Of a DNA stretch of 27,554 nt, positions 3,531-13,776 are shown in pieces. The notes under the pieces are model-generated. The model searched no databases, had not been told where the DNA came from, and was given only the letters and a program-made list of their open reading frames with translations. The stretch is taken from positions 1 to 27,554 of IMG/VR virus record IMGVR_UViG_3300029899_000001. The stretch is one strand, 5' to 3'. The position numbers were made by a program, and so were the translations under genes. This stretch comes from a virus. The stretch's first letter is position 1; each line of letters begins with the position of its first letter.

Positions 3531-4475
3531 CTAGTATTTTACAAAGGCTGTGCTATCTTCATCACGAGATGATAAAGACCTGCGTATATCCTGTTCTAGT
3601 TTTATTTTATTACCTGCCCACTGATAAAGGCCATTTAAACCAAGGACAAGATCGGTTGTAGGGTCATACTCATTAAAATTTGCAATATCTCCACGTGTAT
3701 CATACCCCCTTAATTCAGAAGGGCCATGCCAAAAATGCTGAACAGCACCCATGACGTAGCCAATGTTTTCACGTATAACTTCATGTGCATTGTCACCCCA
3801 ATTTTTAATATACTTTGCAAAACCCGGTGTCATACCCTCTTTAATATGTAAAAATGCATCTCCCTTAAAAGAATTTATCATATAGGTATCTCCTGAGCCT
3901 GCAATGCAAACATCTAGCAAACCGCCAATAGCCAGGTAATCTTCTTTCTTAATTGCCCATGCTAAACCTGGATGCCCTGTCTTAATATCTTTAAGTTCAA
4001 TCTCAGGGTCTTGATGAAAGCCACGTTGGTCAAACATATAACATTCTGACTGGCACTTCCAGTTTGACTCATAGGTAGGCAGAATAAACTGTGCCTCTGA
4101 GAACGGCTGTATTACACTATAATGATGTAGGGCATAAACAGTTTCTTCAACCCATCCTTTACGAGTAAAAGAAATATCTGAATCTATCCAAGCACAGTAT
4201 CTTGCTGTAGGTATTTGTTTGAATAGCTGCTCAAAACCTAAATTAAGACCCCGTTCCTTATGCCACAGCTCTGTGTTTGTATGCAACTGCAAATTCATAG
4301 GGTCATTGGGGCTTGTTACCTCAAAAGGTCTTTCTCCAAAGGATATTTCTACAGTAAATAGTTTAGCCCCTGATGCTTCCATGTGTGTTTTAAAATCGCG
4401 ATATAGATTATACCTAGACTTAAATCTTCGGGGGTTAAAAATTACAGTTATTACATAAAGATTGTTATTGCCCAT
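3531..4475 (-). CDS. GT-A fold glycosyltransferase
   Basis: Predicted cytoplasmic sugar transferase of 314 residues. The N terminus LYVITVIFNPRRFKSRYN is the first strand of a GT-A Rossmann-like fold. The metal- and nucleotide-sugar-binding DxD is D98-S-D100 in YCAWIDSDISF. The stretch GHPGLAWAIKKEDYLAIGG, then AGSGDTYM (192-199), resembles the C-terminal acceptor-side motif of galactosyltransferase-like enzymes (GGxDE position). HFWHG (248-252) may complete the metal site. Phage enzymes of this kind glucosylate modified DNA bases, decorate virion proteins or alter host surface glycans; the sequence does not show which. It overlaps the preceding gene by 11 bases and sits fifth after the promoter-proximal small genes. 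Confidence 0.82.
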   Translation of the reverse strand: MGNNNLYVITVIFNPRRFKSRYNLYRDFKTHMEASGAKLFTVEISFGERPFEVTSPNDPMNLQLHTNTELWHKERGLNLGFEQLFKQIPTARYCAWIDSDISFTRKGWVEETVYALHHYSVIQPFSEAQFILPTYESNWKCQSECYMFDQRGFHQDPEIELKDIKTGHPGLAWAIKKEDYLAIGGLLDVCIAGSGDTYMINSFKGDAFLHIKEGMTPGFAKYIKNWGDNAHEVIRENIGYVMGAVQHFWHGPSELRGYDTRGDIANFNEYDPTTDLVLGLNGLYQWAGNKIKLEQDIRRSLSSRDEDSTAFVKY

Positions 4476-5492: not shown

Positions 5493-5524
5493 CAAAAAAA
5501 ACCCCGTAGCCGAGACTAAGGGGT
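5493..5524 (-). terminator. intrinsic terminator ending the tRNA-like transcript
   Basis: On the minus strand CCCC-T-TAG pairs with CTA-C-GGGG around a TCTCGG loop, with one T-C mismatch. It is followed by an uninterrupted run of eight T. Good stem plus U-tract; it is the second and stronger of two terminators after the tRNA-like element. Confidence 0.75.
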
Positions 5525-5567: not shown

Positions 5568-5594
5568 AAAAAGCCCGCCACAAAGGGGCAGGCT
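5568..5594 (-). terminator. first intrinsic terminator downstream of the tRNA-like element
   Basis: On the minus strand AGCCTGCC pairs with GGCGGGCT (8 base pairs, one T-G wobble) around a 7-base loop, then TTTTT if the closing T is counted. It lies 32 bases after the CCA end. Linker bases in between repeat TTTGGTTTG. Confidence 0.7.
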
Positions 5595-5625: not shown

Positions 5626-5690
5626 TGGTGGCGTGGACAGTACTCGAACCTATGACCTAACGCTGTAACCAACTTAGGTACCACGCCACC
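5626..5690 (-). tRNA. tRNA-like gene lacking an anticodon arm
   Basis: Read on the minus strand: a 7-bp acceptor stem GGCGTGG (5687-5681) with CCACGCC (5636-5630), positions 8-9 TA, a D-loop-like AGTTGGTTA with G18G19, a variable-loop-like AGGTC, a T-loop TTCGAGT, then discriminator A and an encoded CCA (5628-5626). Between the D-loop and the variable loop the usual 17-base anticodon stem-loop is absent, so the RNA is about 62 bases. Instead CCTAA pairs with TTAGG around a 13-base loop. The T-stem ATAGG/ACTGT has a G-A mismatch at the normally invariant pair next to the loop. Three more upstream bases (5688-5690) can pair with the CCA, making a 10-bp perfect stem. It has its own promoter and terminators, so it is probably expressed. 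It cannot decode a codon. A decayed tRNA or an attachment-site fragment is the alternative. Confidence 0.55.
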
Positions 5691-5741
5691 TAGTATTCGA
5701 TAAACACTAGGTACTCCCATTCACTTACCTTATTGACATAA

Positions 5742-12451: not shown

Positions 12452-12670
12452 TTAAATGTTCTCATAACAAAATCCTGGTGTACTACCATCTTCCCATTCT
12501 TCTATTTCTGCTAAAACTAACTGACGAGACCATTCTATAATTAATGTCTCATAGCAACCATTAATATATTCCTCTTTTGAAAAATCACACTCAGCCTTAC
12601 TAGCAATTCTAGTATAATCATCATTTATTTTATGAATCTTATCTCTAATGAAATCTGTCTTTGCGCTCAT
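12452..12670 (-). CDS. hypothetical protein (72 aa)
   Basis: Helical, acidic, soluble. It starts MSAKTDFIRDKIHKINDDYT and contains CDFSKEEYINGCYETLIIEW. No known motif. It starts with a 4-base overlap after the DUF551-like gene at 12667-12888, so it belongs to the same coupled series. Confidence 0.55.
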   Translation of the reverse strand: MSAKTDFIRDKIHKINDDYTRIASKAECDFSKEEYINGCYETLIIEWSRQLVLAEIEEWEDGSTPGFCYENI

Positions 12671-12888
12671 ATCGTTTGGAGTTCAGGTAATAGCATCCAA
12701 TGGGTAATTTCTTTGTTTGTAAATAAAAGATATAATCTGCTTTGCCAGGAATATGTTACTGAATGATTTTCAGGATATACAACATAGGTATCACCTTTAC
12801 AAACTATCAATATATCCCTTCCATCCCTGGGGGCGTTTTCAATATCGGTTCGCCAGGGTAAATGAATAGATTTAGCTAGCTTGCTCAT
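12667..12888 (-). CDS. DUF551-like protein, paralogue 1 (73 aa)
   Basis: One of three copies here of a small domain with the order WRTDIENAPRDGRDILI, variable middle, then ITHWMLLPELQTI. This is the DUF551 layout (tryptophan start, DG turn, closing HWMPLPxxP), common in phages and of unknown function. In this copy the last motif has drifted (HWMLLPELQ). 4-base overlaps on both sides. Confidence 0.7.
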   Translation of the reverse strand: MSKLAKSIHLPWRTDIENAPRDGRDILIVCKGDTYVVYPENHSVTYSWQSRLYLLFTNKEITHWMLLPELQTI

Positions 12889-13130
12889 GTCGTTGGGAGT
12901 TCAGGTATTGGCATCCAGTACGCTATGTCATTGTTTCCAAATATTCCATATTCCACACTTCCCCATGTATAATAGTCTAACCCATCTAAGGGGTATACAA
13001 CATAATAATATCCATTGCAATCACTAATAAATATCTTTCTACCATCCCTCAGGGCATTCTCAATATCAGTTCGCCATGGGGAAACGGGTTTGGGCTGTTC
13101 GTTTAGCAACACTGTTTTTATTTTGCTCAT
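12885..13130 (-). CDS. DUF551-like protein, paralogue 2 (81 aa)
   Basis: Same domain as its neighbours: PVSPWRTDIENALRDGRKIF, a YYYVVYPLDG strand, and IAYWMPIPELPTT at the end. It has a 15-residue N-terminal extension (MSKIKTVLLNEQPKP). It overlaps 12667-12888 by 4 bases and begins one base from the stop of 13130-13402. Function of the DUF551 domain is unknown. Confidence 0.7.
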   Translation of the reverse strand: MSKIKTVLLNEQPKPVSPWRTDIENALRDGRKIFISDCNGYYYVVYPLDGLDYYTWGSVEYGIFGNNDIAYWMPIPELPTT

Positions 13131-13402
13131 TATGATAGGTGATCGATTTTGATTTGTTCAAGTATTTTTTTTAGTTCTATGTAAAACGCCTGTGGTAAAA
13201 AGGTTTTGCGTTTAAAACCTTCAATTAGAGTAACAACTTCATCCCACGTAATCTTTTCCGGCTCTGGCTCAGGCTTTTCAAGTTCAGCAATTATTTTTTC
13301 CAAATATCCTATAAAAAGTAGTACACTATCACCGTTACGATAGCTTAACCATATTTCTAAAGCGTTCTGGTAATCTTGTAATGTTAGTTTTATTTCTTTC
13401 AT
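13130..13402 (-). CDS. hypothetical protein (90 aa)
   Basis: Helical and acidic. It starts MKEIKLTLQDYQNALEIWLS, has a Pro-Glu linker (LEKPEPEPEKITWDEVV) and a C-terminal helical part (FYIELKKILEQIKIDHLS). The opening (KxTLxxYxxAL) is similar to that of its upstream neighbour MSELKLTLTEEHYRQLV, so they may share an N-terminal module. Not recognised. Confidence 0.55.
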   Translation of the reverse strand: MKEIKLTLQDYQNALEIWLSYRNGDSVLLFIGYLEKIIAELEKPEPEPEKITWDEVVTLIEGFKRKTFLPQAFYIELKKILEQIKIDHLS

Positions 13403-13776
13403 ATCGTTGGGAGTTCAGGTATTGGCATCCAGTGTGTTATTTCTCCATTTTTAAAGTAATATTTTTTGTTCTGCCAATCATTATTTTCTAAACCGATTGC
13501 AGGAAATACAACATAACAAAATTTATGGCAATCAATAATCAATATATCCCTTCCATCCCTCAGGGCATTCTCAATGTCTGTTCGCCATGGGGAAACGGGT
13601 TCGGTTTTCGTATCAGGCACATTAAAAGTTAAGGTCTGATAATTATTGTACGTATACTTATGAAATTTTCCTTGTTGATCAAATAAATTAACAAGGTTTT
13701 CAATTTCCCATTTAGAGAAACTGTTAACTAATTGTCGATAATGCTCTTCTGTCAATGTTAATTTTAACTCGCTCAT
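13399..13776 (-). CDS. DUF551-like protein with 60-residue N-terminal domain (125 aa)
   Basis: The C-terminal 65 residues repeat the local DUF551-like domain (WRTDIENALRDGRDILI, then ITHWMPIPELPTI). The N-terminal 60 residues (MSELKLTLTEEHYRQLVNSF onward) are an extra helical domain absent from the other two copies, so this is a fusion or the parent from which the shorter copies were trimmed. It is second in the operon, 4-base overlaps on both sides. Confidence 0.7.
   Translation of the reverse strand: MSELKLTLTEEHYRQLVNSFSKWEIENLVNLFDQQGKFHKYTYNNYQTLTFNVPDTKTEPVSPWRTDIENALRDGRDILIIDCHKFCYVVFPAIGLENNDWQNKKYYFKNGEITHWMPIPELPTI

Follow-up and report, generated by a model that had tools for sequence, protein, structure and literature searches.

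Armless tRNA-like RNAs in phages: a recurrent, structurally conserved class that appears to arise by loss of the anticodon arm

Comparison of phage genomes found here a recurrent and structurally conserved class of tRNA-like RNAs without an anticodon arm, carried by dozens of unrelated phages. One copy lies in the stretch of DNA analysed in this study, a complete IMG/VR record of 27,554 bases (hereafter the window). The explanation that best accounts for the data as a whole, to which we give a probability of about one half, is that the class derives from tRNA genes that lost this arm, and that its likeliest use is that of a decoy.

The armless RNA of the window

The RNA is read directly on the minus strand at 5687-5626 and comprises 62 nt including CCA, in the order GGCGTGG TA CCTA AGTTGGTTA CAGC GTTA GGTC ATAGG TTCGAGT ACTGT CCACGCC A CCA. 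All tRNA landmarks are in register, the anticodon arm excepted, which is replaced by the four nucleotides GTTA. The first-pass annotation had described a 62-base RNA with tRNA landmarks and no anticodon arm, and this description is borne out by direct reading, by the fold and by a covariance model of armless elements (47 bits). The 5' acceptor strand GGCGTGG (5681-5687) forms seven of seven pairs with CCACGCC (5630-5636), followed by the discriminator A and the encoded CCA, both read directly (5626-5629). The D-arm, CCTA-AGTTGGTTA-CAGC (5662-5678), forms two of the four canonical stem pairs, and there is an alternative helix between CCTAA (5674-5678) and TTAGG (5656-5660). Reading and model agree on a variable-loop remnant, GGTC (5654-5657), and the T-arm ATAGG-TTCGAGT-ACTGT (5637-5653) has four of five pairs, with a G-A mismatch adjoining the loop. 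The earlier statement that nearly all landmarks are present stands for the 7-bp acceptor, the loops, the discriminator and CCA, and needs correction at the D- and T-stems. In total, 13 of the 16 model pairs are standard and three are not; the window copy thus lacks full canonical D- and T-stem pairing, a feature that the search pattern partly imposes on the class.

The linker GTTA (5658-5661) has 4 nt where a tRNA has a 17-nt arm, so that the anticodon stem-loop is missing and the RNA cannot read codons. The leader GGT pairs with ACC of the CCA end and extends the acceptor helix from 7 to 10 bp (GGTGGCGTGG/CCACGCCACC); the previously proposed limit at 5690 takes in this extension, the RNA itself being 5687-5626. 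The 72-nt fold has an energy of -30.8 kcal/mol (z -4.7), equalled by none of 200 shuffles. The Rfam tRNA model (RF00005) aligns along its whole length, the anticodon arm being absent, at 24.7 bits (E 0.007, 501 bases searched), which is under its gathering cut-off of 29 bits; several other members of the class are above it. ARAGORN calls neither a tRNA gene nor a tmRNA at the window locus.

An exact match to the Bacteroidota-type promoter-like sequence TTTG-N20-TATATTTG lies at 5773-5742 on the minus strand, about 55 nt upstream of the acceptor. The promoter claimed by the first-pass annotation is thus present as a sequence, but with so much A+T in the window such matches are about as frequent as chance would give (two found, 1.2 expected), so that it is weak evidence alone. 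Its claim of two intrinsic terminators holds better, since two are found where 0.4 are expected: AGCCTGCCCCTTTGTGGCGGGCT followed by TTTT (5572-5594, minus strand), about 32 nt downstream of the RNA, and a second one given by the terminator scan (5500-5517, minus strand) with a run of T after it. In the transcript fold a 5' hairpin, CCTAGTGTTTATCGAATACTAGG (5689-5711, minus strand), abuts the acceptor. Upstream strands of class members are more structured on average than controls (p about 0.005). Over the 45 nt upstream, stable structure ends a few bases from the acceptor in 38 of 57 members, a modest excess over the control regions (p about 0.005).

A covariance search, which the first-pass annotation had proposed, was made with a model built from the armless elements of other phages, the window left out. 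It returns a single match in the window, at 5687-5626 on the minus strand (47 bits, E 1.3e-14). For intact tRNAs of the same phage loci this model gives about 17-43 bits, and for some elsewhere about 53, so that the score alone cannot tell the window RNA from a tRNA; what sets it apart is the missing arm. We regard the window RNA as a member of the class with high confidence, and its copy as probably still functional, although here we are clearly less sure. With three mismatched stem pairs it is a diverged member, and may be decaying; pairing at 13 of 16 positions, together with the absence of the element from the one related contig, leaves membership likely and present function less certain.

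This contig (L003) is the only relative found, through the neighbour gene at 3531-4475. No relatives were found for the neighbouring zinc-finger and 793-aa proteins, a BLAST search with the 421-base region found only chance-level matches in phages, and the exact window pattern occurs nowhere in the viral contigs. The acceptor GGCGTGG is also present in the elongator tRNA-Met(CAT) of 2 of 198 Bacteroidota genomes, which is only a lead to a possible source of the window copy. Elsewhere in the window (12667-13776, minus strand), a motif, PWRTDIENA.RDGR..I...WM.IPEL, is common to several small paralogous ORFs, and the repeats are found in L003 as well.

Recurrence and covariation among phages

A first pattern, a tRNA with a shortened middle, matched five other phage contigs. 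A wider pattern matched 116 stretches in viral contigs and 36 in 84,980 genomes. Twenty of these 36 (e.g. L135 and L150) were rejected as assembly gaps, with N inside the linker of ordinary tRNAs; public assemblies in which NN replaces the anticodon arm of ordinary tRNA genes are an artefact that mimics armless tRNAs. Also discarded were a candidate that looked armless by BLAST and is an intact tRNA-Leu (L169), and four sequences of the last, looser scan that are unrelated (L299, L300, L303 and L304). The looser scan did recover an element (L302) with a covarying D-stem, GTTC/GAAC, and a linker identical to that of the window copy, GTTA.

The class elements have 57 distinct acceptor stems. The distance from the D-stem to the variable loop peaks at 4, 5 and 6 nt (29, 14 and 10 distinct elements), against 19 nt in intact tRNAs. 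The linker measures about 4-9 nt, usually with one closing Watson-Crick pair, as in C-UU-G, and CTTG is the commonest; with linkers of 10-14 nt, acceptors are often poorly paired. Acceptors are very diverse in sequence, yet 7/7 paired in most members, and in a set of 44 elements pairing extends to 97.7% of cells. Both-sided, compensatory changes affect every one of the seven acceptor pairs, three pairs of the T-stem and the pair that closes the linker (0 of 500 shuffles), and the covariation score of the 44 elements is 0.737, against 0.150 when shuffled and no more than 0.151 after sliding. The pattern itself fixes the D-stem and two of the T-stem pairs, which bring no information. The first and last linker bases are Watson-Crick in 38 of 49 cases, where 21.9 are expected (0 of 10,000 shuffles). 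The closing pair is CG in 29, UA in 7 and AU in 1. Compensatory changes, with differing linkers, are also found within groups that share homologous neighbour genes (e.g. L066 versus L099/L114, and an 18-member group), unlike what is seen in decaying copies. We therefore consider it very probable that the class is under selection as RNA. The earlier view that the window RNA is not just debris gains from this recurrence: the same architecture, with compensatory changes, is present in many phages, so that the window RNA is not isolated debris. Chance was considered as its source and set aside.

Of the 57 armless elements, 8 encode CCA, as against 80 of 144 intact phage tRNAs (p 4e-8, host not matched), and this, together with the diverse acceptors, argues against a single amino-acid identity. 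Discriminators are diverse as well, and G3-U70 is found in 6 of 57 members. A C-N-A trailer motif was dropped as a mark of the class, being common in intact tRNAs without CCA as well.

Members are found in isolate genomes (Acinetobacter, Corynebacterium flavescens, Lacticaseibacillus porcinae and Microbacterium enclense, with further carriers in 2 of 119 Acinetobacter genomes) and in cultured phages, and are thus not assembly errors. They are annotated tRNA-OTHER Undet(NNN) in Polaribacter Danklef_1-5 and "tRNA" without product in seven Vibrio phages of the K476 type, and are unannotated in Bacteroides BF1-TP2; Alteromonas PT15-A5 (Schitoviridae) and Lactococcus P335-type phages are also carriers. 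The neighbours are tailed-phage genes (terminase, portal, head, repressor, exonuclease, endolysin), many members sit between structural genes, and no single neighbour gene is common across the groups. Other odd sequences occur nearby. In BF1-TP2 (L156, about 3810-3880), the armless gene is preceded at a distance of about 120 nt by a second tRNA-like sequence, which has a 7-bp GGTAGCT/GGCTACC helix and a GGGGG-TCGAGTT-CCCCC T-arm, without a normal D-arm. A 125-nt tRNA-like sequence (L025:135-259) is intact at its ends and has, after the anticodon arm, a long insertion, possibly an intron or a long variable arm; it adjoins an armless gene with a 2-nt linker (TA). A tRNA-Leu-like sequence, uncalled by ARAGORN, lies just downstream of an armless gene at 1899-1958 on the minus strand (L006).

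Origin and possible use

The origin can be followed in Vibrio phages. D507 and K471 have a tRNA-Met followed by an intact tRNA-Arg(CCT), GCTTCCT...AGGGAGC. In K476, a 157-kb phage whose member sits within the tRNA cluster, tRNA-Met is followed by an armless gene, GCTCCCT...AGGGAGC, with the same T-arm, and then by a different tRNA-Arg(CCT). The K476 gene is the positional counterpart of the D507 tRNA-Arg(CCT), which indicates a phage tRNA as the source of the armless form, with acceptor pairing maintained after arm loss. Bacteroides phages with an armless GCTCCCT also have a separate tRNA-Arg(CCT). As far as sequences can tell, the class arises by arm loss, an origin shown in these Vibrio phages, and is then kept under selection. 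An intact arm in related phages had been named in the first-pass annotation as a point against the RNA: the Vibrio phages do have such an intact counterpart, but no close relative of the window phage carries the locus, and the counterpart shows origin and does not refute function.

In the proposed mechanism, phage tRNA genes would lose the anticodon arm and retain the acceptor, D and T arms. The armless RNA would be transcribed, trimmed by tRNA-processing enzymes, supplied with CCA, and would work as a non-decoding tRNA body. As an uncleavable decoy, it might occupy tRNases of the host or further defence proteins that act on tRNA, and many of these make their cut within the anticodon arm; a tRNA-cutting enzyme could be occupied by an RNA that it binds and cannot cut, or that resembles its product, and the diversity of acceptors would be in keeping with enemies specific to one isotype or another. 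AriB of PARIS, for instance, cleaves in the anticodon stem, between positions 40 and 41 (PMC12409363). Against the decoy stands retron-Eco7, where an anticodon change in the phage tRNA-Tyr abolished rescue (PMC11555353); since the anticodon was needed, that case is one of supply. We tentatively take the decoy as the most likely use. Phages might even repeatedly turn tRNA genes into armless RNA inhibitors of tRNA-cutting immunity, mimicking uncleavable substrates or cleavage products, a broader proposal that we rate well short of even odds.

An alternative use is that of a dead-end mimic: the armless tRNA, charged or uncharged, would bind EF-Tu, an aminoacyl-tRNA synthetase or SmpB, and slow host translation or compete with tmRNA. 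The best-kept parts, acceptor and T-arm, are indeed the face for EF-Tu, and the members with G3-U70, the alanine determinant, as well as the resemblance of L006 to tRNA-Ala, would suit it; the diversity of acceptors and discriminators, the rarity of encoded CCA relative to intact phage tRNAs and the lack of G3-U70 in most members make it unlikely. Quite unlikely, in our view, is that the elements are recurrent tRNA pseudogenes, decaying after frequent deletion of the arm. Arm loss in the Vibrio phages, the window mismatches and the poorly paired acceptors next to 10-14 nt linkers would follow from such decay, but short linkers (4-6 nt) whose closing pair covaries, the well-paired acceptors, compensatory changes between phages with homologous neighbours and the near-constant sequence of the Lactococcus phage element would not.

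RNase P, RNase Z and CCA-adding enzymes act on tRNA bodies, and the armless element might serve to have a phage transcript cut or capped by these activities. The frequent upstream hairpins and the many positions between structural genes are compatible with such a processing or stability element, which we nevertheless hold to be very unlikely given the promoter-like and terminator-like signals proper to the window RNA and to several members, and given the K476 gene in its tRNA cluster. Least credible, to the point of being nearly negligible, is a copy of a host tRNA used as attachment site by an integrase, which the first-pass annotation had offered as the plain alternative. The Lactococcus P335-type element does lie between lysin and integrase. 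Attachment-site copies, however, retain the 3' half only (PMC10865867), whereas members of the class retain a covarying 5' acceptor strand and D-arm, and both acceptor strands and the D-arm are present in the window; members occur in a Schitoviridae phage and in the Vibrio tRNA cluster, and no integrase was recognised among the scanned window proteins. The decoy remains the use that we prefer.

Relation to known tRNA-derived RNAs

Our results suggest that phages make tRNA bodies for a purpose other than decoding. A non-decoding tRNA gene fits neither the codon-supply nor the cleavage-resistant-tRNA explanation of phage tRNAs, and the class exposes a blind spot of tRNA finders. Its presence in cultured phages (Lactococcus P335 group, Danklef, BF1-TP2, K476) makes a direct test possible. 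The open-access literature yielded no account of phage tRNAs that lack the anticodon or its arm, subscription papers and preprints being mostly outside this scope. As the class lacks the defining feature of tRNA and that of tmRNA, we call it a new RNA class on a known scaffold; a form of phage tRNA is the more cautious label.

Phage tRNA genes such as the Vibrio D507 tRNA-Arg(CCT) share with it the acceptor, D and T arms, the position in tRNA clusters and the origin, but the armless RNA does not decode, is uncalled by ARAGORN and is at best annotated as tRNA-OTHER or undetermined, as in Danklef. The tRNA-like domain of tmRNA is also a tRNA body without anticodon arm. The armless class differs from it by a full D-stem, by having no mRNA-like domain or tag and mostly no G3-U70, and the likeness to tmRNA drawn earlier for the window RNA fails, as ARAGORN finds no tmRNA and its pair 3-70 is C-G. 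mascRNA and other short tRNA-like RNAs resemble the class in their length of about 60 nt and in likely tRNA processing; mascRNA is an animal RNA, cut from a long RNA, that keeps a small anticodon-like arm. The anti-defence phage tRNAs, T5 tRNA-Lys and phage tRNA-Tyr, are likewise phage tRNA bodies, with which the class may share an anti-defence use, but they are functional tRNAs, cleavage-resistant or over-supplied. Finally, to judge from the title of a 2025 study by Govande et al., the products of an OLD nuclease are reportedly tRNAs without the anticodon arm; the RNAs described here differ from such products in being encoded as such.
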